A DNA stretch of 64,000 nt, taken from positions 23,985 to 87,984 of the forward strand of contig CANQMO010000011.1 in NCBI GenBank assembly GCA_947624985.1, in the 5' to 3' direction. Of the stretch, positions 4,824 to 40,992 are shown in pieces. Origin of the DNA: an uncultured Oscillospiraceae bacterium. GTDB taxonomy: Bacteria; Bacillota; Clostridia; Oscillospirales; Oscillospiraceae. Within the stretch, counting starts at the first letter, position 1, and each line of letters opens with the position of its first letter. The translations under genes were made by a program, and so were the position numbers. The notes beneath the pieces were generated by a model. It did not search any database. It worked only from the letters and a program-made list of their open reading frames with translations, and had not been told where the DNA came from.

Positions 4824-5038
4824 AAGGGCTGCTGCTGGCTATCGTGCGTTTTTACAGAAAACGCATTTCCCCCCTGACAAGGCCATGCTGCCGGTTCATC
4901 CCCACCTGCAGCGAGTACGCCCTGATCGCCATCGAGCGATACGGGGCCTGGAAGGGCGGGTGGCTGGCGCTCAAGCGCTTTTGCCGGTGCCATCCCTTCC
5001 ACCGGGGAGAACACGATTTTTACGACCCTGTACCGTGA
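4820..5038 (+). CDS. yidD: Membrane protein insertion efficiency factor YidD
   Basis: A 72-residue protein with the conserved YidD core: [20 protein letters not shown] and [10 protein letters not shown]. An amphipathic N-terminal helix attaches it to the inner face of the membrane, where it aids YidC-dependent insertion. It starts at a GTG overlapping the rnpA stop and is followed 14 bp later by yidC. Confidence 0.93.
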
Positions 5039-5052
5039 AATAGGAGAGAAGT

Positions 5053-6399
5053 ATGTTAAAAGCGATCGCAAAGCCGTTCGGCGCGCTGATGCTTTGGCTT
5101 TACAACCTGACGGGCAACTACGGCGTGGCCGTGATCCTGTTCGCCCTGGTGGTGAAGCTGATCATGCTGCCCTTCCAGCTGAAGAGCAAGAAGAGCATGA
5201 TGCGCATGAGCCGCATGACCCCCCGGCTCAAGGAACTGGAAAAGAAATTCGGCAACGACCAGCAGCGCTATCAACAGGAGATGGCCAAGCTGTATCGGGA
5301 GGAGGGCGTCAACCCCATGGGCGGGTGCCTGTGGAGCTTCCTGCCGTTCCCCATCCTGATCGCGCTGTACCAGGCCATCCGCTACCCCCTGACCATCATG
5401 ATGGGCGTGCCGGAGAGCCTGCTGGCGGAGGGCGGCGCCGCTTCCCAGCTTTTACAGCAGCTGGGATATGACATCGCCAACTTCACGTCCGGGCGCAGCG
5501 CCCAGTTTTATGAGCAGATCTACCAGTCCGAGTTCATTTCCCAGGGCCACCTGGCGGCCTTCCAGAACATTTCGGACAAGTTCCAGGAGCTGAGCTACCG
5601 GTTTTTGGGCCTGGACCTGAGCCAGGTGCCCCAGTTCTCCTTCTGGCGGTGGGATTTCAGTGACGCGTCCAAGTGGCTGCCGGCGCTGGGCCTGTTCATG
5701 ATCCCGGTGCTGAGCGCCCTTTTGAGCTGGCTTTCCATGAAGGCCGCCAACGCGGGCAATCCCCAGATGGAGCAGCAACAGCAGCAGATGAAGATCATGA
5801 ATCTGTTCATGCCGCTGATGAGCCTTTATATCTGCTTCACCATGCCCGGCGTCATGGGTATCTACTGGATCGCCCAGAGCGTGTTCGCCATGGCGCAGGA
5901 CCTGATCCTGAACAAGGTGTACAACCGGCAGCTGGACATCGAGGACGCGGACCGTATCGCCCGGGAGAAGGCCAAGGAGGCGGAGCTTGAGGCCAAGCGC
6001 GCCGAGACCGAGCGGCTGAAGGCCGAGGGCGCCACCGTGGAGAACCGGAACACCTCCAAGAAGAACAAGCGCGCCGTGGCCGCCCAGAAGGAAGTGGAGC
6101 GCAAGGCCGCCGAGGCCCGCGCCGCCCGCCGGGCCAAAAAGGGTCTGGACGCACAGGAGGATATCCCCGCCTCCCAGGTGGGAGACCGGCGCTATGCCCG
6201 TGGCCGGGCCTATGTGCCCGACCGCTACACCAACCCCGACGAGGCCGAGGCCAAGACCCTGGCCGCCGCGGAGGAGAGCGCGGAGTATGACGAGACGCTG
6301 ACGGCTGTCATGGCGGAAGCGGCCGCCGGGGACGAGCCCGCCCCCCATCAGGAGGCTGAAGCCATGGCTGCCGGCGATGAAGTAACGGAGGAAAATTGA
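5053..6399 (+). CDS. yidC: Membrane insertase YidC (Oxa1 type)
   Basis: A 448-residue integral membrane insertase. The N-terminus lacks the large periplasmic domain of Gram-negative YidC. Hydrophobic segments cover about residues 10-45, 85-110, 200-230 and 245-285, with the conserved NPMGGC region near residue 94. After about residue 285 there is a long charged Ala/Glu/Lys tail of some 160 residues, longer than usual and probably ribosome- or RNA-contacting. No lipobox is obvious at the N-terminus. It has a GGAGAG ribosome site and sits between yidD and jag. Confidence 0.93.
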   Translation: MLKAIAKPFGALMLWLYNLTGNYGVAVILFALVVKLIMLPFQLKSKKSMMRMSRMTPRLKELEKKFGNDQQRYQQEMAKLYREEGVNPMGGCLWSFLPFPILIALYQAIRYPLTIMMGVPESLLAEGGAASQLLQQLGYDIANFTSGRSAQFYEQIYQSEFISQGHLAAFQNISDKFQELSYRFLGLDLSQVPQFSFWRWDFSDASKWLPALGLFMIPVLSALLSWLSMKAANAGNPQMEQQQQQMKIMNLFMPLMSLYICFTMPGVMGIYWIAQSVFAMAQDLILNKVYNRQLDIEDADRIAREKAKEAELEAKRAETERLKAEGATVENRNTSKKNKRAVAAQKEVERKAAEARAARRAKKGLDAQEDIPASQVGDRRYARGRAYVPDRYTNPDEAEAKTLAAAEESAEYDETLTAVMAEAAAGDEPAPHQEAEAMAAGDEVTEEN

Positions 6400-25910: not shown

Positions 25911-27482
25911 TTAGTGTTCCATGTCTTGTGTCTTTTGCTTTGCTGGATGGGCGCCCGGCTGCGGCGAGGCGTCTTGCAGCTTTGCAAGCACAGAAGAACG
26001 CTCCTGCTTCTGTTCGGCAGGGTCCGGCAACAAGCCGGGGATGACCTTATCGACCCAGGCGCGGATCTCCTTTAGCTTGCGCAGATCGCCTTGGATGGCC
26101 GCCAGCCGGGTTTCCTTGTCCCGGTTCTGCTCCCGCAGAGCGTTGTATTCCGCTTGCAGAGCCTGGACAGGCGGCACATCGTCCACTCCGCCGTGGTGCA
26201 TAAGATAGCCATATGCCTTTTTCATGGCGGCAAGCTCATCTTTGTGCTCGGTGGCATACTTTTCTTTTGCCCGCTTGAAACCCTTTTTGCTGTAAGCGTC
26301 GTACACGGGCTTGAGCTTTATGTATGTCTCGTATGCGTCCAGCGTGGCGGCGATGACCTTCATTCGCTTTTCGTTGGCCCGCATATCCTTGCGGATCGTG
26401 TCGGCTTTGCTCTGGGTCGCAGACAGTTTGGCCCTGAAAGCATCCACGGAAATCAGGCCGTTATCTTTCAGATACGATATGGCTTGCATCACCTTGTCGA
26501 GGTCTGCGGCGGTTCCTTTGAGCTGCCCCATGGCAGACCAGCTGGCGCGCTCGTCCTCCCGCATTTCCATGTATCGGGCCAGCAGCGCCGGGACGGTCGG
26601 CTCCTTTCGCGTTTCCAGAGCGTTTGCCAGCGTTTCCAGCCACGCTTTCAAATGCCGGATGTGGGCGCGGATGGATGCCATCAGGCTATTGGCGGCTTTG
26701 ATGTCCCTGTTGAGATCGCCGATGTTGGTCCGTATGCCCCGCTTCTCCATCTGGAAGACTGCCGGGCCCATGTGGACAGTCGGTATCTTGTCAACGCCCT
26801 GCCGAACATAGGAACGCAGGTCCACGCGCTCCGGGCGATCATTTCGCTCCAGGTAATCGTTCTGCACGACCTCCCAAGCGTGCCGCCAGATCTCGCCGTA
26901 TTTTCTGTCGTTCCAGTCAACTGTGTCTTCCTTATGGCTGGCCCAATAGCGGCTGTTGGGGCATTTGTATCGCTGGCCGTTTTCGTCCAGATCGTAGACC
27001 TTTTTGGTCTTTGGCAGCCAGCGGCCATGCTCGTCCATCGGCCGCATGGTCAGCATGACGTGGGCGTGGGGATTGCCGGTCCCCTTGTCGTGGATAGCAA
27101 AATCGACGCACATCCCTTTGGAAACGAATTGTTCTTGGCAGTAATCGCGCAGCATCTGCGGATACTGTTCCGGCGGAACCTCTCGCGGCAGAGCCATGAC
27201 GATGCGGCGGGCAAGCTGAGAGTTCCACTGATTCTCTTTCCGTTCAACCGAATTCCAAAGCGTGTTCCGATTTGCAAATTCCGGCGGCGCGTTTGGCGGG
27301 AGCATGATCTCCGTGTAGACGATGCCGCGTTTCTCAGAATAGGATTTCCGCTTTCCGTCGTATTCGGAAAACAGGCTCTCGCCGCTCTGATATGCGGCAC
27401 CGGCGACGGCGGACTGGCCCAGGCTTCGCTGGGTGATTGTGAGCTTAAAGTGCGGACATGGTATAGGCAAAACCTCCTTCAA
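25911..27482 (-). CDS. MobA/MobL (MOBQ) relaxase
   Basis: A 523-residue relaxase that would nick the transfer origin and lead the strand into the recipient. The N-terminus has the family block HFKLTITQRSLGQSAVAGAA. The metal-binding His motif is HDKGTGNPHAHVMLTMR (about 150-166). The C-terminal half is a long charged helical region. It is full length for this family. No coupling protein or type IV secretion genes are in the window, so transfer would depend on a helper element. Confidence 0.92.
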   Translation of the reverse strand: MKEVLPIPCPHFKLTITQRSLGQSAVAGAAYQSGESLFSEYDGKRKSYSEKRGIVYTEIMLPPNAPPEFANRNTLWNSVERKENQWNSQLARRIVMALPREVPPEQYPQMLRDYCQEQFVSKGMCVDFAIHDKGTGNPHAHVMLTMRPMDEHGRWLPKTKKVYDLDENGQRYKCPNSRYWASHKEDTVDWNDRKYGEIWRHAWEVVQNDYLERNDRPERVDLRSYVRQGVDKIPTVHMGPAVFQMEKRGIRTNIGDLNRDIKAANSLMASIRAHIRHLKAWLETLANALETRKEPTVPALLARYMEMREDERASWSAMGQLKGTAADLDKVMQAISYLKDNGLISVDAFRAKLSATQSKADTIRKDMRANEKRMKVIAATLDAYETYIKLKPVYDAYSKKGFKRAKEKYATEHKDELAAMKKAYGYLMHHGGVDDVPPVQALQAEYNALREQNRDKETRLAAIQGDLRKLKEIRAWVDKVIPGLLPDPAEQKQERSSVLAKLQDASPQPGAHPAKQKTQDMEH

Positions 27483-28984: not shown

Positions 28985-29161
28985 TTAATTACTGTCGGGG
29001 ATGTATTCAGCTATGTCCTCCAGCTTGCAGTCCAGCACTGTACATAGCTTGTTGAGCGTCTTGGTTTCCATGTTGTCGTTTGCCCGCAAGCGCCGGACCG
29101 TCTTGCTGTCAATGCCGCACTTTTCTCTTAACTGGTATGTGGAGACGCCATTTTCTTTCAT
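28985..29161 (-). pseudogene. Truncated Cro/C1-type HTH regulator
   Basis: The frame reads MKENGVSTYQLREKCGIDSK and TVRRLRANDNMETKTLNKLC, ending DIAEYIPDSN, a Cro/C1 HTH of the small YozG-like type. In-frame sequence upstream of the ATG encodes FDKLWGV, the usual first helix. A stop lies just before it and no start or ribosome site is visible, so the 5-prime end appears lost. It resembles the intact controller at 36254-36496 and may be a relic of an earlier cargo. Confidence 0.55.
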
Positions 29162-29277: not shown

Positions 29278-29631
29278 CTATTCGCAGAGAGAATAGATTT
29301 TCGGCATACCACCAGTATCTATAACTTTACCGATCTCAAGAAGGCCGTAAACAATCAAAGCCCGAACATAAATGTATGGAGTGTCTGTATCAGGATATAA
29401 AACCTTTACATAGGGGGCGAGATCATCAAAAGAGCCTACACTGTAGTTGCTGCCATTGCTGTCGGGGACAACATATGTGGCAGGGTCAAATTTGCCATAG
29501 AAATTCTTAACTGCATATGCAAAAGCAAATTTCGCAGCAGATGTCCCGTGGTCGAATTTTCCTGTTGCGACCAGTTTGTCAGCAACATCATTGGCGGTTT
29601 TTGATAGGCGGAAGTTTGTTATATCGTTCAT
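29278..29631 (-). CDS. Small protein, possibly DndE-like, end of defence operon
   Basis: A 117-residue protein, last in the minus-strand defence operon, 15 bp after the DndD-like ATPase. The start NFRLSKTANDVADKL, the middle GSNYSVGSFDD and the hydrophobic segment RALIVYGLLEIGKVID recall the layout of DndE (DUF1832), the small DNA-binding member of phosphorothioation clusters. Similarity is weak and judged by eye. ATG 29631 has GGAG 9 bp upstream, while ATG 29640 abuts it. No DndC, DndA or DndB is present, so DNA sulfur modification is not implied. Confidence 0.45.
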   Translation of the reverse strand: MNDITNFRLSKTANDVADKLVATGKFDHGTSAAKFAFAYAVKNFYGKFDPATYVVPDSNGSNYSVGSFDDLAPYVKVLYPDTDTPYIYVRALIVYGLLEIGKVIDTGGMPKIYSLCE

Positions 29632-29646
29632 ACCAGTCATCTCCGA

Positions 29647-31641
29647 TTACTGCAATTCTATCTCTGTATGGAAAGAACCATACTTTTTTAGGCGGTACTC
29701 TTTTTTCAGTGTGCTTCCCAAAACCTGTCTAGCGGTCTGTCCATCGATTTCATCTGTGTATGCTAGAAGGATGATCTGATCAGACATTAAGGGAAGCGCT
29801 TTCGTTATATTCTTCTTATGGGTCGGGTCAAGACGTCCAAAAGGTGAATCCATTATAATGGGTCCGCTCAAAGGAGCATTTTTGTGCAAAGCTCCAATCA
29901 ATGACAACGCTACAATATGCTCGAATCCAGCGGAACGGAATGGTATCATTTCACCTGAACGATGCTGTATAGAGAGACCATAGTTATCATTGATCTTCAA
30001 TGCGGTATAATCGGGATCGCTACTAATATTACGGAAAAGCTCGGTAGCATCATTTTCAACGTCCGCTTTCAGTTTATCACGATATGCGGCAATGCCGTCG
30101 TTGAACAACTGATGAAGCGCTGCACATATCTCGACCTTTTTTACTGCAAGATTTAAATCGGCATCAGAAGTTCCCGCCTTCCTAACTCTTTCTTCAAGGC
30201 TTGCCAAAGCGGTGTCTGCTTCTCGTATTTTTTCCTTGGTCGCCTGAATGCCCTCTTTGAGATTCTCAATCTTTGCGTAGCATTTAGCCAAGTTCTGCGC
30301 ATTTTCTTTTGCGGCAGCGGTAAGGTCGCGTACGTTTCCATAGCGGCTGATATCGTCCCGCAGATCTTTGAGTTGACCATTTGCGTCATCGATTTGAACT
30401 AAGAGATCAGCCAATTGTCCTTCATAGACCTTGAGAACCTGGACGTCTACGGAGCTCTGCATACTTTCCAAAGATACCTGCTGTATTTGAAGGGCCTTCA
30501 TTCGCTCGGTTTCTTCAGGGGACAATCCTCCAAACTCTCCGGGTTCTTCATCAAGCCGCTTTTTGAGCGCAGCTACATGAGCCTCATCCACATCCTGATC
30601 GCAGCATTCACAATGATGCGTTTCCACAATATGCTGAATGTAGGCGATAAGCCGTGCAGCTGATTCGTGGGTATTGTGCTTCTTCTGGAGCGCGGAAAGT
30701 TCATCCCTAACCTGAGATAGTATTCTAGAGGTCTGCTTGCCAATCACATATTTCCAGACATCTTTTGTCTCAGCAACGATTGACTGTAGAAGACCGTCGC
30801 GCAAAGCTTCTTTTGCAGCAATGTCGCTCTCCAAGTGTTCTTTATTTTGTATTAACGTCCTGAGATGCTCGTTCTGCTTTCCCTTATCCTCAAGCTTAGC
30901 TCTGAGATCCTGCTCCTCTTCATATGCCTTCTGAAGCCGGGCCAATTCTTTGATCTGCTCTTCTTTCTTTGCAGTTTCCGATTCAATCTGTGCAGCATAC
31001 TTTTCTGTCTGCTTATTTGCTTGAGCTGCTTTTGTCTGCTCCTTCCGGTACTCGTTTAGCACAAAAAGAGTATCATTTGCGGCGTTTGTCAGAATAGGGA
31101 CCCCTAAGATTGACTCAATGGATTTCTTGATTCTCTCGCCGACAGAGGTCTCATCCTTTACAAGCTCTTCATATTCCTGTAGCAGTTCGCCGTCAAACAG
31201 AAAGAAGCGGGATACTTCCTCCGGCATTATCATTGCGAGCTCATGCTCTTTGTTAGGGGGGAAATGCCCATCGACTTTAAGAAAAACATCCTGGACATAG
31301 TCGTCATTTCTGGAAGGAACTGTTACTCCGGAGCGAACGCTGTATTGACGGGTAAGTTCATATCTCTTTCCATCAAGGAGCATTTTCAATACGATCTTAA
31401 AGTCGTATTTACCCGCTTTCATCCCTTCCCTGTTTACCAGTTTAAGGATATCGTCCACTGTTTCGTGGCGATATTGGAATCTTCCGAATAAGGCATAACG
31501 AAAGAGATTAAGGAGCGTGGTTTTTCCATGACCGTTGTCTCCCCAGATAAGAGTGACACCGTCTCCATCACCGAAGTCTATCGTCTGCTCGCCTTCATAA
31601 GGGCCAAAATTGCTGATAGTCATACTCGTGAACTTCAACAT
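29647..31641 (-). CDS. DndD-like SMC/Rad50-type ATPase with zinc hook
   Basis: A 664-residue ATPase. Walker A is GDNGHGKTT (34-42). Long coiled coils run about 195-340 and 360-510 with a zinc-hook turn CECC (C344 and C347) between them, and Walker B with D-loop is IIMDSPFGRLD (about 595-605). FFLFDGELL near 147-155 is typical of DndD, the ATPase of phosphorothioation and related restriction systems. Such proteins couple ATP hydrolysis to DNA end or lesion recognition. It lies 18 bp after the 65-residue gene and is followed by the DndE-like gene. Confidence 0.8.
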   Translation of the reverse strand: MLKFTSMTISNFGPYEGEQTIDFGDGDGVTLIWGDNGHGKTTLLNLFRYALFGRFQYRHETVDDILKLVNREGMKAGKYDFKIVLKMLLDGKRYELTRQYSVRSGVTVPSRNDDYVQDVFLKVDGHFPPNKEHELAMIMPEEVSRFFLFDGELLQEYEELVKDETSVGERIKKSIESILGVPILTNAANDTLFVLNEYRKEQTKAAQANKQTEKYAAQIESETAKKEEQIKELARLQKAYEEEQDLRAKLEDKGKQNEHLRTLIQNKEHLESDIAAKEALRDGLLQSIVAETKDVWKYVIGKQTSRILSQVRDELSALQKKHNTHESAARLIAYIQHIVETHHCECCDQDVDEAHVAALKKRLDEEPGEFGGLSPEETERMKALQIQQVSLESMQSSVDVQVLKVYEGQLADLLVQIDDANGQLKDLRDDISRYGNVRDLTAAAKENAQNLAKCYAKIENLKEGIQATKEKIREADTALASLEERVRKAGTSDADLNLAVKKVEICAALHQLFNDGIAAYRDKLKADVENDATELFRNISSDPDYTALKINDNYGLSIQHRSGEMIPFRSAGFEHIVALSLIGALHKNAPLSGPIIMDSPFGRLDPTHKKNITKALPLMSDQIILLAYTDEIDGQTARQVLGSTLKKEYRLKKYGSFHTEIELQ

Positions 31642-31659
31642 AACGAACGACCCTCCTTA

Positions 31660-31857
31660 TCAAACAGTCACCGTATTTAGAAAAACATCTATAACTTTCT
31701 GCGTATCGTACCTTGCTTTTGTTCTGTCGTCCTGGGTCGAGAATTCAGCTGCTACTATCTCCTGGATTAAATGCGCGGGTATTTCGGGATGCTGCTCGGT
31801 TCGGAGATGTTCTAATACAGAGATTAGTTCGTTGATTTCGATGTTAGTCACTGTCAT
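31660..31857 (-). CDS. 65-residue protein of the defence operon
   Basis: A small acidic, helical protein beginning MTVTNIEINELISVLEHLRT. It overlaps the end of the helicase gene by 14 bp, which supports coupled translation and a structural or regulatory role in the complex. No family is recognised. In Rad50-like and DndD-like systems small partner proteins are common, but assignment here is by position only. Confidence 0.6.
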   Translation of the reverse strand: MTVTNIEINELISVLEHLRTEQHPEIPAHLIQEIVAAEFSTQDDRTKARYDTQKVIDVFLNTVTV

Positions 31858-33973
31858 CTTCCTCCATTCCGGTGTTTTGCAAATTTTGGTAGTCGATCTG
31901 GTAATCGACAGCTATATTTTTTAAATCAGTAACACAGGCAGGGTTTTCTGCACCTAAACCGAACTGAATGGCCCTTGATAATTCACCGATAATAATCGAC
32001 ATAGATTTTGGCGTTTCCTTGGTTTCGATTACGGGAACCGTAATCGCATCATAGAGATGAGCGAAGAGCTTGCCGGGCGAATTTCTTAAGATTCTGCCTC
32101 TGCGTTGGATGAATTCTCTTGGGTTCTGCGAAGATGCAAGAATCAAAGCGTGAGTGACAGAGGGGATGTCAACGCCTTCATCCAAGCACTTGATTGAGAC
32201 CAGAATGCCACCGTTCTTGGAAAAGTATCGGATCGTCTCGTCTCGATCACCTTCCATATCTGCGTAGTATTCAAATGCATCAAGACCCGCATTGATTGCA
32301 CTGTTCAATACTTTTTTCAACTGCGTAATGTTGTCACAATAAATTATCCAACTCTGACCTCTTACATATTCTTTCAGCAAAAGGTTAATGGCCAGCGGGA
32401 CCTTACTGGAAGCGGTCTTGACAATGTGCGCTCTCTTAATCAGTAACTGCTTGAGCCGTGTGTTAGATGCAATGTTTATATCTGCATTCTCGCCAGAAGT
32501 CAGACGAGCCACAAGATGGCTTATCTGTTCTGTTATAGCATTCCATTCCTCCTGTTCCTTTTGCGTGAGGGTAATAGTCAGCGGGTTATAAAAATACCTT
32601 GTTAAAACGCCACTTTTAATAGCGTCATCCAATGTATAAGGCGGGGGAACTATGCCACCAAAATAATCAAAAAGTGCGGCTGTGCCTTCGGGATCTCCGT
32701 ATCTGCGTGGCGTTGCAGATAGGCCCAATCTTGCACCTACTTCTATGTTCAAAAAATTACGTCTGCGCGGGCTGCCCAATCTATGGACCTCGTCAGCTAC
32801 GACGAAAAGATGCTCACCCTGCGATATATTTTTTGAAAAGTCATCTGAACATGCCGTATCCATGGTAGCAAGTATAATGCGATGAGTTGAACTGCCGTCG
32901 CTCGTCCAAGCTGCCAAGGAATCAGGCTTTTTCCATTCGTTGTTTTTATCTCCGCAAAGAAGATAATATATTATATCTTCGCGTAAGGTCTCTCTTAATT
33001 CCCGATCCCATTGTTTTAGGAGATCTCTGGAGGGGACTAAAATCAGCACGACTTCATTTCTTTTGAAAGCGTCATGAATTGCACACATGGCAGTAAAAGT
33101 CTTTCCGCTGCCCGTTGCGTGTTCAAAAATACCTCTTCGACCATTCTTTACCCAAGCTTCGAGTGCATTCACTTGATGAGGTCGAGGTGTGCGACTTCCG
33201 GCATGATTGCTGGGTTTCCACCGTTTTGCCTTGCTTTCTTCAACGTGAATCTCATCCAATAATTCGTGCCATTTTACTCCTTCGGCTTTAGTTCGTAATA
33301 TTTCCTTAGAGGCACGTGGGAATGGATATACAGTGATGCCGGGAACAAACCCTGACCATAATCTTTCAAAAAATGTCGAAGCGTCATTGACCCGTTCAGC
33401 ATCGCGGTTGTCGAGCCAATTAGGAAACACATCGATAGATTCCATGTTTCCATCGGAGGACAGTCCTTTGTACGTTTCATTCATCGAACCACGGAAGCCT
33501 ACTTTATTACCATCCAAATCAGTGAAAATTCCGACTTTGTCGTGAAACAGCCTTTTTGCGTTTGGTGATTCATTGCCGGTTGGTACAGCAATTTTAACAT
33601 CGATGATGCCTTTTGAAACCATATATGCCAGTAGTTTTGCGGGTGCAGTCAAAAATGGGTCATCAAATAATGCCTGTACTTCTTTTACGAGTGCCTCCGC
33701 AAGCAGCCTATCATTTTTTGCTGAATAGCCGTTAGCTAATGCAGCAGCATCCTCGTCAGATACATACGGCGAGCATATCAAACGCATCTTACCATCATTA
33801 TCAATAAACTCTCGTAATGCATCCCAAGCAATAATGTAAATCGTGCTTCCAAAATACCCGGAGATTCTGTCGTAATAGCTTGCATGCCTCATGCATGGAA
33901 GATAAAACATTTCGGCTATGTCATGTTCGGCTTTGTTGTAAGACGTCAAATAGACTTGTTCCTTAAGGCCCAT
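31844..33973 (-). CDS. PLD-family nuclease fused to SF2 (DEAD/DEAH) helicase
   Basis: A 709-residue putative restriction effector. The N-terminal phospholipase-D-like domain (about 1-210) has HDKVGIFTD (H144, K146) followed by GSMNE (about 162-166), a full HKD nuclease half-site. The SF2 motor follows: Walker A HATGSGKT (about 285-292), DEVH (394-397), SAT (about 419-421) and the arginine finger region QRRGRILR (about 632-639). PLD nucleases of this kind cut DNA without metal, usually as dimers. ATG 33973 has GGGGG 7 bp upstream and the start overlaps the previous stop. Compare the PLD/helicase restriction systems CglI and NgoAVII. Confidence 0.85.
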   Translation of the reverse strand: MGLKEQVYLTSYNKAEHDIAEMFYLPCMRHASYYDRISGYFGSTIYIIAWDALREFIDNDGKMRLICSPYVSDEDAAALANGYSAKNDRLLAEALVKEVQALFDDPFLTAPAKLLAYMVSKGIIDVKIAVPTGNESPNAKRLFHDKVGIFTDLDGNKVGFRGSMNETYKGLSSDGNMESIDVFPNWLDNRDAERVNDASTFFERLWSGFVPGITVYPFPRASKEILRTKAEGVKWHELLDEIHVEESKAKRWKPSNHAGSRTPRPHQVNALEAWVKNGRRGIFEHATGSGKTFTAMCAIHDAFKRNEVVLILVPSRDLLKQWDRELRETLREDIIYYLLCGDKNNEWKKPDSLAAWTSDGSSTHRIILATMDTACSDDFSKNISQGEHLFVVADEVHRLGSPRRRNFLNIEVGARLGLSATPRRYGDPEGTAALFDYFGGIVPPPYTLDDAIKSGVLTRYFYNPLTITLTQKEQEEWNAITEQISHLVARLTSGENADINIASNTRLKQLLIKRAHIVKTASSKVPLAINLLLKEYVRGQSWIIYCDNITQLKKVLNSAINAGLDAFEYYADMEGDRDETIRYFSKNGGILVSIKCLDEGVDIPSVTHALILASSQNPREFIQRRGRILRNSPGKLFAHLYDAITVPVIETKETPKSMSIIIGELSRAIQFGLGAENPACVTDLKNIAVDYQIDYQNLQNTGMEEDDSD

Positions 33974-34496
33974 GATCAACCCCCAGCAAATCTTCGTGCA
34001 TTATATCCATACGTCGAATTATTGCGTCATACAAGTATTGCGGTCGAGCACAAACGATTCGCTCATTGTTATTTCTGACCGACTCAGATATTCTCGTACA
34101 CAACGATTCAACAATCGCATCCACTTTTACCTGCATGTTGCCGCTATATGCAAAATCGCTGTGTTTGTCTGCATCCCAAAAAGCAAAAGAAATATCGTCA
34201 CCATCCCGTACTAACGCACCAATAATGGGAAGCCGTCCGTCGGAGTAGTCAAGTTGCCCGCGTTCCCCTCGTTGTTGACCGGGAAGAATCACCTGTATCT
34301 TGTATTCATCTAATGTGCGACCGCCAGGTGGATTTGTACAGTTCCATAAATATACGCGCAAATGTAGATTTCTTGGCTGCAAATCTACAAGTAAAGGAAA
34401 TGATGATATATCACTATGCCAAACGATATGATCACCGAGCCCTTCAATGAAGATGGTATTCAGCGCCTGTTTACTTAGTCTTGTGCCCTTCGCCAT
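33963..34496 (-). CDS. EYKIQ-motif protein associated with methyltransferases
   Basis: A 177-residue protein carrying LRVYLWNCTNPPGGR, DEYKIQVILPGQ and FAFWDADKHSDFAYSGNMQV. I associate this pattern with domains found beside DNA methyltransferases and in modification-dependent restriction enzymes, perhaps as the DNA-recognition part. That link is from memory and unverified. ATG 34496 has GGAGGAG 6 bp upstream. A TTG 18 bp earlier is rejected. It overlaps methyltransferase 2 by 26 bp and the helicase by about 11 bp, so the operon is tightly coupled. Confidence 0.6.
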   Translation of the reverse strand: MAKGTRLSKQALNTIFIEGLGDHIVWHSDISSFPLLVDLQPRNLHLRVYLWNCTNPPGGRTLDEYKIQVILPGQQRGERGQLDYSDGRLPIIGALVRDGDDISFAFWDADKHSDFAYSGNMQVKVDAIVESLCTRISESVRNNNERIVCARPQYLYDAIIRRMDIMHEDLLGVDHGP

Positions 34497-35340
34497 TACC
34501 CACTCCTCCAGCAATAGAGAGCAGTCGGATGTTTGCCTGTGCTACATATTCCTCTACGACATCAAAGCCGGCAAAATACCTTCCAAGGGAGAGCGCGGCA
34601 TATCCCGTCGTTCCGCTCCCCATCCAGGGATCTACTACCAAATCATTCTCAGACGTTGTTGCCTTGATATATTTCTCTGGCAAATACAGTGGCTGCATTG
34701 CAGGATGACCGTCTATTCGAGAAGAAACTCCGCCGCATATGACGTTTTTGGGTAATGCTCCTAGCGGATTGGGAGATATTCTTTTATTTTTGCGAACGTA
34801 GGTATTCCCGTTTGATCGAGGTTTATATTCATATGACTCGTATGTCTGTACACTATGAGATTCGTATGGTCTGCGTATTGCATCAAGGTTGATATTCCAT
34901 TTTGGAGATTTTGAAAACCACAAGTTCTGTTCGTATGCATCTTGGCATGCGACGCGAAGACCTGTTGGCACTGGATTTTCCTTGATCCATATTTCAATGT
35001 CAACACAATGAAACCCCCAAGTCTCTTCCATCTCTATTGCGAGTTTTTCTATAATCAAGGATCGTTTAGATGCAAACTTAGCAGAGGCTTTTTCTCTATT
35101 TGCCTTAACATTTATGACGATAAAACCATCATCACGCAACTTTGTGTAGCCAGCGTCTAAAAAGGGAGCCATTTTCTTAATATATTCAGATGCCCGCCAT
35201 ACACCGTAATCACGTTCTGCATTTGGATATGGTGGAGAACCATAAATCAGCTTTATGGATTTGTCTGGGAGAAGAAGCATCCCTTTGGAACCATCCATCT
35301 GCCGGACGCAGTATTTGTTTTCACTGATCTCCTGCAACAT
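34471..35340 (-). CDS. DNA methyltransferase 2, beta class (N4-C or N6-A)
   Basis: A 289-residue amino-methyltransferase. The catalytic motif GSPPYPNAERDYG is near the N-terminus (about 33-45) and the SAM motif DPWMGSGTTGYAALSLG near the C-terminus, so the order is circularly permuted (beta class). ATG 35340 is chosen because GAGG lies 9-10 bp upstream. It leaves only a 20-bp overlap with methyltransferase 1 and places SPPY at the same distance as in that protein. Longer starts back to a TTG at 35427 exist. Two different methyltransferases suggest an asymmetric target, with one enzyme per strand. Confidence 0.85.
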   Translation of the reverse strand: MLQEISENKYCVRQMDGSKGMLLLPDKSIKLIYGSPPYPNAERDYGVWRASEYIKKMAPFLDAGYTKLRDDGFIVINVKANREKASAKFASKRSLIIEKLAIEMEETWGFHCVDIEIWIKENPVPTGLRVACQDAYEQNLWFSKSPKWNINLDAIRRPYESHSVQTYESYEYKPRSNGNTYVRKNKRISPNPLGALPKNVICGGVSSRIDGHPAMQPLYLPEKYIKATTSENDLVVDPWMGSGTTGYAALSLGRYFAGFDVVEEYVAQANIRLLSIAGGVGNGEGHKTK

Positions 35341-36247
35341 CTGCGTTAACCTCTTCGTGTAAGCCTTGTTCATAATCCAATCTAAGGGTGGCAAGCTTGC
35401 AATACTCTGCATTGGCATCAATGCCAATCCATACGCGGTTCAGCCGTTGTGCCACAGCGGCCGTTGTGCCAGAGCCAGAAAAAGGATCAAGGACAACATC
35501 GCCTTCGCAACTTCCAGAAAGAATGAAAAATTCTGCGAGTTTCTCGGGAAAACGTGCCGGGTGTCCGATTCCGTTTTCCTTACAAAGTTTCATAAAATAG
35601 TCATTGCTGCTCGTATTCGCTATTTCAATCACACTTCCAGGATCGGAGCCACCATTATCAGCCCAAGTCTTTTCGCAATCAAAGTTATGTGTGCTTGGGC
35701 GGATATTCTGGTTTCTATCACCTTTACCTTTTCCTTGGAGATACTTCTGCATATCTTTGCTGTATGGTTTTCTGATTGGATCCATATTAAATTCCCAAGA
35801 ATCACCTTTTGCTAGCCAAAAACAATATTCATGTGATTTCTTCGTTCGACCATAGCCGCCTCTTGAGTACACGTTAGGCGGAGTTGCAGGATTATACCAG
35901 ATGTAGTCTCGCACAAGATGAAAGCCAACATCCTTACATAAGTTAAGTAAAAGCTCAAAGACATATAAATGCTGATAGTTACCCACAATTTTGTCGCTGA
36001 TATTCAAAACGAAACTGCCGTCGTTCTTAAGAACCCGGTAAATTTCCTTTGCTTTTGGAATAAACCAGTCAATATATTCATCTGGGGGGATTGTCCCATC
36101 AACCTCACCGTAATCTCTTTTATCAGCATACGGAGGTGATGTAAGAACCAAGTCTACGCTCGCATCAGGCATAGTTTTAAGAATGGTCTCACAATCACCG
36201 CATATAAATTTATTTATAAATGTCTTTAGCGTCCGTTTCTTTCTCAT
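35321..36247 (-). CDS. DNA methyltransferase 1, beta class (N4-C or N6-A)
   Basis: A 308-residue amino-methyltransferase with TSPPYADKRDYGEVDG (about 36-51) and C-terminal DPFSGSGTTAAVAQRL, giving the beta-class order IV then I. The middle part carries the variable target-recognition region and differs from methyltransferase 2. It starts 6 bp after the controller gene, behind AAAGG. It protects host DNA if the downstream PLD-helicase is the restriction arm. The target sequence cannot be predicted from sequence. Confidence 0.88.
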   Translation of the reverse strand: MRKKRTLKTFINKFICGDCETILKTMPDASVDLVLTSPPYADKRDYGEVDGTIPPDEYIDWFIPKAKEIYRVLKNDGSFVLNISDKIVGNYQHLYVFELLLNLCKDVGFHLVRDYIWYNPATPPNVYSRGGYGRTKKSHEYCFWLAKGDSWEFNMDPIRKPYSKDMQKYLQGKGKGDRNQNIRPSTHNFDCEKTWADNGGSDPGSVIEIANTSSNDYFMKLCKENGIGHPARFPEKLAEFFILSGSCEGDVVLDPFSGSGTTAAVAQRLNRVWIGIDANAEYCKLATLRLDYEQGLHEEVNADVAGDQ

Positions 36248-36253
36248 TATTAA

Positions 36254-36496
36254 TTATACCTTTTTGTCTTCGTCGTCAGATTGCACTTCGACGTCGAGTG
36301 AAACTTCCATGATATCTGAAATATCGCATTTAAGAGCATCACATATTTTTAGAAGAACATCGGTAGTTAGGTTTTCATTTTTAGAAAGTTTTGCCATGGA
36401 AGCTGTACTTATTCCGGTTGCTTCCCGAAGGTCCTTCCTTTTCATATCTTTATCAATGAGAAGTTTCCAAAGTTTTTTATAGCTGACAGTAGACAT
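36254..36496 (-). CDS. Cro/C1-type HTH controller of the defence operon
   Basis: An 80-residue regulator (YKKLWKLLIDKDMKRKDLRE, then ISTASMAKLSKNENLTTDVL), a small Cro/C1 HTH like the C-proteins that time restriction after entry into a new host. It is the first gene of the minus-strand operon. GAGGAGG lies 7 bp before the ATG. A perfect promoter is 75 bp upstream with an inverted repeat just after it, which fits autoregulation. Confidence 0.85.
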   Translation of the reverse strand: MSTVSYKKLWKLLIDKDMKRKDLREATGISTASMAKLSKNENLTTDVLLKICDALKCDISDIMEVSLDVEVQSDDEDKKV

Positions 36497-36570: not shown

Positions 36571-36599
36571 ATTATATCGGCTTTCTACTTCTATGTCAA
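36571..36599 (-). promoter_or_regulatory. Sigma-A promoter of the defence operon
   Basis: On the minus strand, TTGACA (36599-36594) and TATAAT (36576-36571) with a 17-bp spacer: a perfect consensus promoter reading into the controller and methyltransferases. Confidence 0.85.
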
Positions 36600-36749
36600 G
36601 GCTAGTGGTGAATCATCTTAAACGTGCTATATCATATACGGAACTGTATGATTTGCTAAGTTGTAGTAAGAGAAGATCAGAAAATGAAAACTAACGTCAG
36701 ATAATTGAATGTTCAGGAATAGAACAAGAGTAGAAACACTCACACAATA

Positions 36750-36791
36750 ATTAAAATCCGGGTTGACAGCGGCTCGGATTTTAATTATAAT
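36750..36791 (+). promoter_or_regulatory. Promoter with palindromic operator for XRE-YhcG
   Basis: TTGACA (36763-36768) and TATAAT (36786-36791), 17 bp apart. A perfect 11-bp inverted repeat, ATTAAAATCCG (36750-36760) and CGGATTTTAAT (36775-36785), brackets the -35 element. Binding there would block the polymerase, so the HTH gene downstream probably represses itself. Confidence 0.8.
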
Positions 36792-36821: not shown

Positions 36822-37175
36822 ATGAAGTTGCTTGGTAGCAGGCTCCGCGCTTTGCGTGAGAGCGTCGGGATGTCGCAGATCAAACTGGCTGAGGAGATCG
36901 GCTCTACACAGTCCAGCATCAATCGCTATGAAAACGGACAGTCTGCCCCTCCGATCCGGTTGATGCGGAAGTATGCGGATTACTTTGATGTGTCTATGGA
37001 CTACATCTACGGGCGCTGTGATGATCCGCGAGGCAAGCTATACAGTGCCAAGCCGCCGGTGGCCGCAAGCAACCCGGAATTGCGGAAGTTCATAGATATG
37101 TGCTTTGACCCGGAATCGCCTATGAATGAGAAGCTCAAGGCTGCGCTGCTTCAAATGTTGGAGGAAAAACCATGA
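36822..37175 (+). CDS. XRE-family regulator preceding YhcG nuclease
   Basis: A 117-residue protein with a Cro/C1 HTH at the N-terminus (LRALRESVGMSQIKLAEEIG, then STQSSINRYENG), followed by a short helical tail. AAGGCGG precedes the ATG. The stop overlaps the YhcG start (ATGA), so the two are translationally coupled. The promoter carries a palindrome suited to autorepression. A regulator-plus-nuclease pair of this kind could work like a toxin-antitoxin or a silenced defence gene. Confidence 0.85.
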   Translation: MKLLGSRLRALRESVGMSQIKLAEEIGSTQSSINRYENGQSAPPIRLMRKYADYFDVSMDYIYGRCDDPRGKLYSAKPPVAASNPELRKFIDMCFDPESPMNEKLKAALLQMLEEKP

Positions 37176-38176
37176 GTGAGGAAATGACACCGAAACTTCA
37201 ATTTGATGAGATATTATCTATTATTGACGGTGCCCGTAATCGTGCGTTAAAGGCCGTCAATGCAGAACTGATCCATATGTATTGGGATATTGGCGCTTAC
37301 CTCTCCAAACTGTGTGCAGACTCTTCTTTCGGCGATAAGGTCATTGATGAAGTGGCAGCCTATATTGCAGACCGCGATCCTGAGGTGAAAGGATTTACCC
37401 GCCGTGGGTTATACCGTATGCGCCAGTTTTATGAGACTTACAAGGACGATGAATTTGTGTCACCACTGGTGACACAAATTAGCTGGACGAATCATTTGCA
37501 AATAATGTCTGGTTCAAAGACAGCGGAAGAGCGACATTTCTATATGGCCTTGTGTGCGAAAGAGCGGTATTCCAAGCGCGAGTTAGAGCGCCAGATGGAG
37601 AGCGGCTACTATGAGCGGTATATGCTCTCGGAGCAGAAACCGTTGCCAAAGCTCGTGTCCAAAGATGTTCGACACAGCATTCTGGACACCTATGTGCTTG
37701 AATTCTTAGACTTGCCGAAGGATTATTCTGAACGCAATCTCAGGAAGGCGATTACTAGCAATCTGAAGGACTTTATTCTGGAATTCGGCAAGGATTTCAC
37801 TTTCATTGGCGAAGAGTATCGCATACAGGTTGGCGGCGAGGATTACTATATTGACCTTCTCTTTTATAATCGGGCACTGTCCTGTCTGGTTCCGGTTGAA
37901 CTGAAGATCGGAAAGTTCAAGCCAGAGCACATCGGCCAAATCAATTTCTATCTGGAAGCATTGGACCGCGATGTGAAAAAGCCCAACGAAAACCCCAGCG
38001 TGGGTGTTGTCCTGTGCGCCGCCAAGGATGATGCAGTTGTGGAGTACGCACTTAGCCGCAGTACGTCCCCTACGCTTGTTTCGAGTTATACAAGGTATTT
38101 GCCGGATAAGAAATTGCTGCAGGACAAGCTACGCGAACTCACGGAGCTTGTGTTAGACGCTGGTGAGGATGCATAA
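37172..38176 (+). CDS. YhcG-family PD-(D/E)XK nuclease (DUF1016)
   Basis: A 334-residue protein. The N-terminal DUF1016 domain (MYWDIGAYLS, FTRRGLYRMRQFYETY, QISWTNHLQIM) is followed by a PD-(D/E)XK nuclease fold with YYIDLLFYN and VPVELKIGKF (D228, E243, K245 intact). Genes of this family occur next to restriction systems and in defence islands. The target and trigger are not established. It is the second gene of the XRE-YhcG operon. Confidence 0.9.
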   Translation: MSEEMTPKLQFDEILSIIDGARNRALKAVNAELIHMYWDIGAYLSKLCADSSFGDKVIDEVAAYIADRDPEVKGFTRRGLYRMRQFYETYKDDEFVSPLVTQISWTNHLQIMSGSKTAEERHFYMALCAKERYSKRELERQMESGYYERYMLSEQKPLPKLVSKDVRHSILDTYVLEFLDLPKDYSERNLRKAITSNLKDFILEFGKDFTFIGEEYRIQVGGEDYYIDLLFYNRALSCLVPVELKIGKFKPEHIGQINFYLEALDRDVKKPNENPSVGVVLCAAKDDAVVEYALSRSTSPTLVSSYTRYLPDKKLLQDKLRELTELVLDAGEDA

Positions 38177-38261
38177 AGCCAGAGTTTAAGACCCATGCGC
38201 GATAGCGATGACACTTAAGAAATCCGCATAGTGACTTCCAGATTGAGGGAGAAGCATTGAT

Positions 38262-39392
38262 ATGGATACAATTACAACCAGAACAGTCGGAGCGAGATTT
38301 GCGGAGACCGATGAATTCATTTTGACAGAAACGCCGAATACAGCCATAGTATTTAAGCCGCAGATACATGAAGGTGGTGTTCGAGGTTCAATTATTCGAT
38401 ATAAAAAAGATAGAAATGGGAATAGAGCGGTTCCTGTCTCCGTTGATTTTCGTCGATTAAATGCTGGCGATGGAATAGAAGTTGAACTAAATACGGAAGC
38501 GGTTGATAATTTGATTCGACACGTTCAAGAATTACAAGCGCTCATTGAGGAAGAAGGAGTTCGGCCTGGCACCCACCGATACCGGGTTGCTGATGCCGAT
38601 GACCTCATTATAACAGATCAGAATAAAGCGTGTGTAATTCAAAGACTTCTAGAAGCCAATCTAGGAGAGGAGGTTTGGGGTCAATTAGCGCATAATAATC
38701 CTGATATTGCCACTCGCCTAGCTAACTCAAGGATTCATGAAGAAAGATTAGAAGTCTTACGGACATTTGAAGGGATGCTTCAAGATAATACACTTACTGA
38801 GAATGAATGGCAGAACTTTTTTGAGGAGAATACCTGGATATTTGGCTATGGTCTTAGATATCAGGTGCTACGAGTGATACAGCCGCAGCCAGATCTTGGA
38901 GGAGCTGCCGTAACGGGAAGAGGAGGTCAGCGAGGAGATTTCTTAACTGCGACAGAGGCAGAAACAAGATTCACTTGTTTAGTAGAAATTAAGACGCCTA
39001 CAACACTTCTTTTACAGAGGGAACGCTATAGAAATGGTGTGTGGGGCGCCAGTAAAGAGTTGGCTGGAGCTATTTCACAGGTGCAGGTTAACTGTGCGCA
39101 ATGGGAGATTGAAGGCGCTCGAACTGAACAAAACCGCGAGTTGCTTGCGGGTAATTATACGATTTCCCCAAAAGGAATTGTGGTTATTGGAAAGACAAGC
39201 GAATTGACTGACTGGAATAAACAGAACTCTTTTGAGCGTTTTCGGAGAGAAATACGCAGCCCGGAAATCATTACTTATGATGAACTCTATGAGCGAGCTA
39301 GATACATTGTGGGTATGCCAGCAGCCCAAAACGCTGCTATTACCAACGTGCCGATGACCGAAATTGCCGACGATGACGACTTGCCCTTCTAA
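38262..39392 (+). CDS. Shedu-type anti-phage nuclease (DUF4263)
   Basis: A 376-residue protein. The C-terminal half is the SduA/DUF4263 nuclease: ENTWIFGYGLRYQ, QRGDFLTATEAETRF, CLVEIKTPTTLLL, then ELAGAISQVQ. PD-(D/E)XK residues D226, E242 and K244 are present. The N-terminal 170 residues are a variable region presumed to sense phage. Shedu is a one-gene defence system in other bacteria. It lies 85 bp after yhcG and 70 bp before the serine recombinase, inside element A. Confidence 0.85.
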   Translation: MDTITTRTVGARFAETDEFILTETPNTAIVFKPQIHEGGVRGSIIRYKKDRNGNRAVPVSVDFRRLNAGDGIEVELNTEAVDNLIRHVQELQALIEEEGVRPGTHRYRVADADDLIITDQNKACVIQRLLEANLGEEVWGQLAHNNPDIATRLANSRIHEERLEVLRTFEGMLQDNTLTENEWQNFFEENTWIFGYGLRYQVLRVIQPQPDLGGAAVTGRGGQRGDFLTATEAETRFTCLVEIKTPTTLLLQRERYRNGVWGASKELAGAISQVQVNCAQWEIEGARTEQNRELLAGNYTISPKGIVVIGKTSELTDWNKQNSFERFRREIRSPEIITYDELYERARYIVGMPAAQNAAITNVPMTEIADDDDLPF

Positions 39393-39462
39393 CAAAATGT
39401 CTGAAAGAATTACCCTTGCGAGTCAGATGATGTCGGTATTAACACAGGGGAGGGGAGGATAA

Positions 39463-40992
39463 ATGAAAGCAGTAATCTATGCCCGGTACTCCTCCGACAA
39501 TCAGCGGGAAGAGAGCATAGAGGGACAGATACGCGAATGCAATGAGTATGCCGAGCGCAACGGGATCACGGTCCTGTGCAGCTATATCGACCGAGCCCTG
39601 TCCGCCCGCACCGCCGACCGTCCCGACTTCCAGCGTATGATCCGGGACAGCGAAAAGGGTCTGTTCGACGTGGTGCTGGTGTGGAAGCTGGACCGCTTCT
39701 CCCGCGACCGCTATGACAGCGCACACTACAAGCACATTCTGAAAAAGAACGGCGTCAAGGTGCTGTCCGCCAAGGAGAATATATCCGAGGGGCCGGAGGG
39801 TATCATCCTGGAATCCATGCTGGAAGGCTACGCGGAGTATTACTCGGCGGAGCTGTCGGAGAAGATCCACCGGGGCCAGAAGGAAAACGCCCTGAAATGC
39901 AAGAATAACGGCGGATGGCGAGCATTGGGCTATACCGTAGACGCAGACGGCTCCTTTGTGATCGACCCGCTGACCGCGCCGATCGTCAGGGAGATATTCA
40001 CCCGGTATGCCGACGGCGAGACGATCACGGACATTGCACAGTCGCTCAATGACCGGGGACTGACAACGACCCAGGGAAGACCGTTCCGGTGCGCTACGGT
40101 GAGCATCATGCTGAAAAACCGGAAGTACATAGGCGAGTACCGCTACGGCGGTGTGGTCGTGCCCAACGGCGTTCCGGCCATCATCGACGAGGGGACCTTT
40201 GCACGGGTGCAGGAGCGGCTGGAGAAGAACAAGAGAGCTCCCGCCAAAGCGAAGGCGGCGGACGAGTATCTGCTGACCACGAAACTATTCTGCGGGACCT
40301 GCGGGCGGCTGATGGTGGGCGAGAGCGGCACCAGCAGCACGAAGGGCGTCAAGCATTATTACTACAAATGCGGCGGTGCGAAGCGGCATCTGGGATGCAA
40401 ACGAAAAGCGGTCAAAAAACAGTGGATAGAGCGGGCCGTCGTGCTCTGTACGGTGAAGCGGGTATTGCAGGACCATGAGATCGAGCGCATTGCTGAGTCC
40501 ATCGTGAAGCTGCAGGAGCAGGAGGACACGACCCTGCCAGCGTTGCGGCATCAGCTTCAGGAGTGTGAAAAGGGCATAGAGAATATGCTCAACGCGATAC
40601 AGGCGGGAGTGCTCACCTCATCCACCAAGGAGCGGCTGGACAAGCTGGAGGCCCAGCGGGATGATCTGAAAATCGCCATCCTGCAAGCGCAAATGCGAAG
40701 GCCCACATACACGAAAGAGCAGATCGTCAGCTGGATCGGTCGATTCAAGTACGGCAATGCCAACGACCCGGCCTATCAAAAGGGCATTATTGATACGTTC
40801 ATCAATTCGGTCTATGTCTTTGACGATAAGCTGGTATTCACTTTCAACTACCACGACGGGACGGAGACCATCACACTGAAAGAGATCGAAGAAGCGTTCG
40901 GTTCGGATTTAACGCAACATGCTCCACCAAATGGACATTGGACGAACACCTATTATTTCAAAGGCGGCTTTGCTGTTATGGTGTGGCTCTGA
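39463..40992 (+). CDS. Large serine recombinase (integrase of element A)
   Basis: A 509-residue site-specific recombinase that would integrate and excise the element. Its domains are a resolvase catalytic domain with YARYSSDNQ (nucleophile S10) and DRFSRDRYD, a recombinase domain with RNRKYIG-like LKNRKYIGEYRYG, a zinc ribbon (CGTCG, then C..C near 300-325) and a coiled coil about 350-430. Its last 21 codons and terminator recur almost unchanged at 46550-46667. Large serine integrases usually act alone for integration and need a small directionality factor for excision, which was not identified. Confidence 0.93.
   Translation: MKAVIYARYSSDNQREESIEGQIRECNEYAERNGITVLCSYIDRALSARTADRPDFQRMIRDSEKGLFDVVLVWKLDRFSRDRYDSAHYKHILKKNGVKVLSAKENISEGPEGIILESMLEGYAEYYSAELSEKIHRGQKENALKCKNNGGWRALGYTVDADGSFVIDPLTAPIVREIFTRYADGETITDIAQSLNDRGLTTTQGRPFRCATVSIMLKNRKYIGEYRYGGVVVPNGVPAIIDEGTFARVQERLEKNKRAPAKAKAADEYLLTTKLFCGTCGRLMVGESGTSSTKGVKHYYYKCGGAKRHLGCKRKAVKKQWIERAVVLCTVKRVLQDHEIERIAESIVKLQEQEDTTLPALRHQLQECEKGIENMLNAIQAGVLTSSTKERLDKLEAQRDDLKIAILQAQMRRPTYTKEQIVSWIGRFKYGNANDPAYQKGIIDTFINSVYVFDDKLVFTFNYHDGTETITLKEIEEAFGSDLTQHAPPNGHWTNTYYFKGGFAVMVWL

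Follow-up and report, generated by a model that had tools for sequence, protein, structure and literature searches.

How would an operon that combines two DNA methyltransferases with a nuclease-helicase and a zinc-hook ATPase tell self from foreign DNA? This question is raised by a 64,000-nucleotide stretch from an uncultured Oscillospiraceae bacterium (assembly GCA_947624985.1, contig CANQMO010000011.1), referred to below as the window. Eight open reading frames (ORFs), all on the minus strand (29278-36496), are read from the sequence as one operon. They code for the PbeABCD core, preceded by a helix-turn-helix (HTH) protein, two methyltransferases (MTases) and MTaX1 (methylase-associated X1). 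We consider it probable that these constitute a restriction-modification defence system. An N4-methylcytosine-type (m4C) mark would label self DNA, PbeC, PbeD and MTaX1 would check for it, and PbeA would attack DNA that lacks it. The gene set is already in print, described from sequence, and its kind is not new.

The gene identities and the mechanism are supported by matches to PADLOC, Pfam and NCBIfam models, a predicted DndE fold, motif IV of the MTases, their kinship to M.PvuII, the PLD and helicase motifs of PbeA, and a conserved gene order. A first-pass annotation of the window had described a tightly packed minus-strand operon behind a perfect promoter, and this holds. The junctions (5' to 3') are +6, -20, -26, -11, -14, +18 and +15 (or +6) bp, which are overlaps or gaps of at most 18 bp. 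Its two DNA methyltransferases, its PLD nuclease fused to a superfamily 2 (SF2) helicase, its 65-residue protein and its DndD-like zinc-hook ATPase are all recovered (Table 1). The protein that it had recognized by an EYKIQ motif is real and is MTaX1, and the last gene product, which it had called possibly DndE-like, has a predicted DndE fold. PbeA matches TIGR04095 (2e-102) and PbeC matches the DndD model TIGR03185 (1e-51), both under the family cut-off, as is PF13091 alone for PbeA. The HxK...GSxN and ATGxGKT motifs are invariant in 15 of 15 aligned PbeA sequences.

For both MTases, the best solved relative is M.PvuII, an m4C enzyme (4.8e-49 for MTase1, 1e-17 for MTase2). Motif IV of MTase1 (TSPPY) is presumably of the N4-cytosine type. 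Motif IV was found in 55 of the 58 MTase genes near members of the PbeA clade described below (SPPY or SPPF in 42, TDPPF in 13). A single motif pattern detected no C5 methyltransferase in the 106 surveyed stretches, a result that does not extend to the C5 variants described by Rakesh 2024. Judged from these sequences, N4-cytosine-type methylation is likely to mark self DNA, and it is plausible that the two MTases act on an asymmetric site. Of the 104 further loci with a PbeA gene, 10, all from Bacillota, likewise encode MTase, MTase, MTaX1 and PbeA in this order and on a single strand. This arrangement is therefore beyond chance.

The restriction-type operon and its conserved synteny thus stand, but the claim that no known system has the full set does not, because a named match to the gene set is in print (Rakesh 2024, PMC10853773; Xiong 2019, PMC6459918; both cited here from parts of their text). 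Rakesh 2024 equates PbeABCD with CxC-ABC/DndE systems, some of which include cytosine-5 or N4 methylases and MTaX1; the methylase-containing CxC ABC-ATPase/DndE systems were first described in ref. 24 of that paper. Like the window, these have an HKD-SF2 helicase, a small protein, a zinc-hook ABC ATPase, DndE, N4-cytosine methylases and MTaX1. In Xiong 2019, the archaeal DndCDEA-PbeABCD system reduces SNJ1 plaques about 10^4-fold. This defence needs pbeB, pbeC, pbeD and, partly, pbeA, and virus marked by phosphorothioate (PT) escapes it. The pairing of PbeABCD with methylation was already proposed there; of 320 solitary PbeAC pairs, 155 have candidate base-modifying genes no more than 10 kb away. 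The genes pbeA to pbeD have the same order as in the window, and the archaeal PbeB (66 aa) is nearly as long as the small protein here. Unlike that system, the window has MTases and MTaX1 where the PT genes stand, and the gene that follows PbeC is shorter, with a median of 126 aa in 37 loci of the methylation clade against 168 aa in 40 loci outside it. Among the open-licence papers listed by literature searches, no experimental study of the methylation form was seen. What is added here is the separation of MTaX1 from sulfur genes, a PbeA branch apart from the sulfur systems, the distribution of the CxxC hook and the MTaX1 fusions.

DISARM, BREX, Dnd and CglI/NgoAVII were set aside, since PADLOC and Pfam put the core in Pbe. 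DISARM has MTase, PLD and helicase functions in common with the operon. The PADLOC matches listed for the operon's proteins include neither DrmA nor DrmB nor DrmC; for both MTases, PbeA and PbeC, these are the best 25 of 35-83 families. PbeA is weakly similar to DrmD (5e-6). In CglI/NgoAVII, the PLD nuclease (with a B3 DNA-binding domain) and the helicase are separate subunits, accompanied by a methyltransferase. The window differs in having PLD and helicase in one chain and in the addition of PbeC and PbeD, and none of the eight proteins has a Pfam B3 match at E <= 0.1.

Partner genes were surveyed in 106 stretches: the best 80 of at least 554 genome loci from a PbeA alignment search, 25 same-phylum stretches (from a pool of 32 that match TIGR04095, the window's own genome not counted) and the window. 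All except L151 hold a PbeA gene. Because the 80 loci are the top of a ranking by similarity to the query, shares are not frequencies. When the 105 PbeA loci are labelled by genes within 9.5 kb of PbeA, 29 have MTase and MTaX1, 13 only an MTase, 5 only MTaX1, 25 a DndC/SspD-like gene and 33 none of these (some of the latter sit on short contigs). An MTase accompanies MTaX1 in 29 of the 34 MTaX1 loci, a DndC/SspD-like gene in 0 of 34 (Fisher p 1.4e-5, kinship ignored). The window's own draft genome (G000, 87.6% complete) has no match to TIGR03183 (DndC). These three results support a methylation mark. A rival reading is a PT-type Pbe with dnd genes elsewhere in the genome. Incompleteness of the assembly leaves room for such genes, but the missing DndC match and the lack of any sulfur-labelled row in the window's 51-row PbeA clade make this very improbable. 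The methylation form is rare within its own phylum. MTaX1 occurs in 1 of 398 sampled genomes, that of the window. Of 33 genomes with PbeA matches, the 24 that scored best were examined; MTaX1 is found in 1 of them and DndC-like matches in 12, above the family cut-off in 2.

A composite of a different kind, Ssp-PbeABCD, was observed in L103 (2581-14861), where PADLOC assigns SspA-, SspB-, SspC- and BrxP/SspD-like genes directly before PbeA, small protein, PbeC and PbeD. Similar gene lengths and a DndC-like match are found in L107, L110-L112, L114, L121, L132, L133, L135, L136, L138 and L141. In L137, a 749-aa gene takes the place of the SspA-like gene.

The partner labels follow the phylogeny. 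A quick PbeA tree was computed from 99 rows (6 of 105 were left out, being shorter than 600 aa; many rows gave composition warnings). The window falls into a 51-row clade (SH-aLRT 99) with 29 MTase+MTaX1, 10 MTase, 4 MTaX1, 8 unlabelled and 0 sulfur-labelled rows. One change on this tree suffices to part MTaX1 from sulfur labels; a single MTase-labelled row, L115, lies outside the clade. PbeC of the window has a median phmmer score of 329 bits to its own clade, 73 to sulfur-labelled PbeC and 56 to DndD. In a separate ATPase tree (FastTree), 47 PbeC fall on one side with support 99, namely 43 clade members plus L089, L090, L102 and L113, the PbeA of which are too short for the PbeA tree. The zinc hook was compared in the 84 PbeC of sufficient length. 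A CxxC hook occurs in 40 of 41 loci labelled MTase or MTaX1 (the exception is L115). The 20 sulfur-labelled loci all have CxC instead, and 11 of the 23 unlabelled loci have CxxC. The CxxC of the MTase- or MTaX1-labelled loci differs from the CxC hook of Rakesh 2024, the main text of which does not contain the term CxxC (PMC10853773). The window hook, CECC, satisfies both patterns, and seven DndD proteins have neither. A small ORF of at least 45 aa was found between PbeA and PbeC both in loci of the clade (35 of 44) and in the remaining ones (29 of 41).

Since the labels follow a single split, the branch differences would represent one event rather than many. It is tempting to speculate that PbeABCD is one restriction engine used with several self marks and that a single split gave rise to two branches. 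The sulfur branch would have a CxC hook, a longer PbeD and no MTaX1. The methylation branch would have a CxxC hook, a short PbeD and MTaX1, which would act as a PD-(D/E)XK-like reader and, depending on N4-methylcytosine, license or block the engine. We consider this scenario doubtful, the more so because CxxC also occurs in four loci beyond the clade and because of the placement of DndD in the ATPase tree. If it were true, one ATPase-DndE-nuclease engine would be controlled by sulfur in the DNA in one lineage and by methylated bases in another. Comparison of the two lineages would then reveal the mark-reading part, for which MTaX1 is a concrete candidate.

Several observations weigh against the restriction-modification reading or its single-split form. 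As to the latter, L146-L149, which are unlabelled and lie outside the 51-row clade, carry CxxC, so that this hook is no private mark of the clade; in addition, the remaining 37 PbeC are not parted from 7 DndD in the ATPase tree. The separation of partners is not complete in Xiong 2019, where DndCD and an MTase jointly occur near 105 of 553 PbeAC (PMC6459918). MTases were counted more widely there than here, and scoring of MTaX1 does not appear in the cited part of that paper. Eight of the 51 clade rows are unlabelled, which speaks against a strict rule. L082 and L083 have a TSPPF MTase gene just beyond the 9.5-kb limit; L070, L077 and L079 have none by Pfam. The Pfam scans of genes in unlabelled L070, L077, L079, L083 and L090 returned no MTase, L072 has a D12 match under threshold, and the upstream gene of L074 has no Pfam match. 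Finally, Xiong 2019 saw no viral DNA degradation by DndCDEA-PbeABCD, found pbeA only partly required and found the system inactive without PT (PMC6459918). This makes a cleavage-independent block the main rival: the mark would license PbeABCD, which would stop the replication of unmarked DNA without cutting it. We regard this as unlikely. Of 99 PbeA rows, 98 retain the PLD motif, which argues for catalysis, and Rakesh 2024 also argues for cleavage (PMC10853773). If the mark only protects, the system would be classical restriction; if it licenses as well, the logic would be new. A 2025 review terms the PbeABCD restriction event obscure (PMC12707154, cited in part).

MTaX1 is likely the reader of the mark or site. 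It is seen fused to methyltransferase, HTH_17, HNH and AAA_5 domains, which fits a DNA reader. To our knowledge, there is hardly any dedicated N4-methylcytosine reader. The fusions that place MTaX1 on the N-terminal side of AAA_5 and HNH domains admit another interpretation, as this is the arrangement of McrB-like and modification-dependent enzymes. In such a Type IV-like arm, MTaX1 would recognize modified phage DNA, and the MTases would serve another purpose. Two MTases in the operon, and MTases in most MTaX1 loci, make this improbable. Plasmids yielded three MTaX1 records, all haloarchaeal. Haloarchaeal plasmids carry an MTaX1-HNH fusion (L154, 5986-6939), adjoined by DUF1156, DUF499 and GmrSD genes, and an MTaX1-AAA_5 fusion (L155, 5983-8511).

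For the restriction-modification reading, we propose the following sequence of events. The two MTases would modify a single site in host DNA, probably an asymmetric sequence of which each enzyme methylates one strand. PbeC, presumed to clamp and scan DNA like Rad50-like ATPases, and PbeD, a double ribbon-helix-helix protein, would search DNA for this site. MTaX1, the gene of which directly precedes that of PbeA and overlaps its start (11 bp), would read the methylation state and couple the reading to PbeA. On DNA with unmarked sites, PbeA would translocate by its SF2 motor and nick or cut by its PLD site, thereby blocking replication. The HTH gene would time expression, with methylation first. 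The PbeB-equivalent small protein, which overlaps the PbeA gene and ends 18 bp before that of PbeC, may be a needed linker or a brake. Rakesh 2024 proposed a suicide model with the small protein as negative regulator (PMC10853773), in which a phage would disturb this protein or the methylation, upon which PbeA would cut host DNA. This is quite unlikely here: Pbe without its mark was not toxic in Xiong 2019 (PMC6459918), and the small protein, with 17 relatives between or after PbeA in 17 other loci, is recognizably conserved across 18 aligned sequences and is not freely evolving in this branch.

Table 1. Features of the operon (window positions).
Feature	Position	Strand	Basis
Sigma-70 promoter, TTGACA-N17-TATAAT	36571..36599	-	12/12 consensus matches, exact
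HTH_26 (Cro/C1-type) regulator, 80 aa	36254..36496	-	PF13443 7e-21
DNA methyltransferase 1	35321..36247	-	PF01555 1e-50; motif IV TSPPY
DNA methyltransferase 2	34471..35340	-	PF01555 5e-37 (scored with one extra codon); motif IV GSPPY
MTaX1, 'EYKIQ' protein	33963..34496	-	PF20296 2.7e-20
PbeA, PLD (HKD) nuclease fused to SF2 helicase	31844..33973	-	PADLOC PbeA 6e-215
PLD motif of PbeA, H144-x-K146 ... G162-S163-x-N165	33479..33544	-	invariant in 15/15 aligned
Small protein, 65 aa, PbeB-equivalent	31660..31857	-	by place and size
PbeC, coiled-coil ABC ATPase with zinc hook	29647..31641	-	PADLOC PbeC 7e-223
Zinc-hook apex of PbeC, Cys-Glu-Cys-Cys	30601..30612	-	alignment of 84 PbeC and sequence
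PbeD, 117 aa (120 aa if start 29640)	29278..29631	-	predicted DndE fold

The first gene product, HTH_26, is likely an autoregulator. The first-pass annotation had called it C-protein-like; this label was dropped, as the PADLOC control-protein model is not among its matches. That model weakly (1.3e-5) matches a divergent 117-aa HTH protein (36822-37175), which is served by a second exact sigma-70 promoter in the opposite direction (36763-36791). A perfect 14-bp inverted repeat (36747-36788) overlaps this promoter and is likely the operator of the divergent gene. Matches to HTH_26 by phmmer lie upstream of MTase genes in L050, L051, L052, L058 and L060, and also occur in L112, L133 and L142, which are outside the methylation clade. 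A pair of an HTH gene and a larger gene is found beside the methylation-type operon in L050 (1152-2271), L051 (5965-7079), L052 (6040-7164) and L053 (5914-7684). The larger partner has an M78 (IrrE-like) domain in L050 and L053, and these may be regulator pairs. A second small gene of the HTH_26 family lies right downstream of the operon in the window (28985-29161).

The PbeD model has six-residue interhelix loops, tentatively closer to the compact clade 1 of Rakesh 2024 than to clade 2. Right after PbeD, proteins with sigma-70 regions are encoded in L056 (14719-16386) and L082 (14616-17252), one of them also with an RNA polymerase alpha carboxy-terminal domain. Genes of similar length (only lengths were compared) occupy this place in L058, L076, L078, L080, L083, L088 and L102.

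The operon is flanked by a MobA/MobL relaxase gene (25911-27482) on one side and by DUF1016 nuclease, Shedu and serine recombinase genes (37172-40992) on the other. No near copies were found in plasmids, and PbeC has no match in phages at 1e-20. The block is likely mobile, because L073, from an Oscillospiraceae metagenome-assembled genome, has 12.3 kb in common with the window at 96%. Between DUF1016 and the serine recombinase, the window carries Shedu (38262-39392) and L073 a Hypoth_Ymh gene (4997-5788), the same element with its cargo exchanged.

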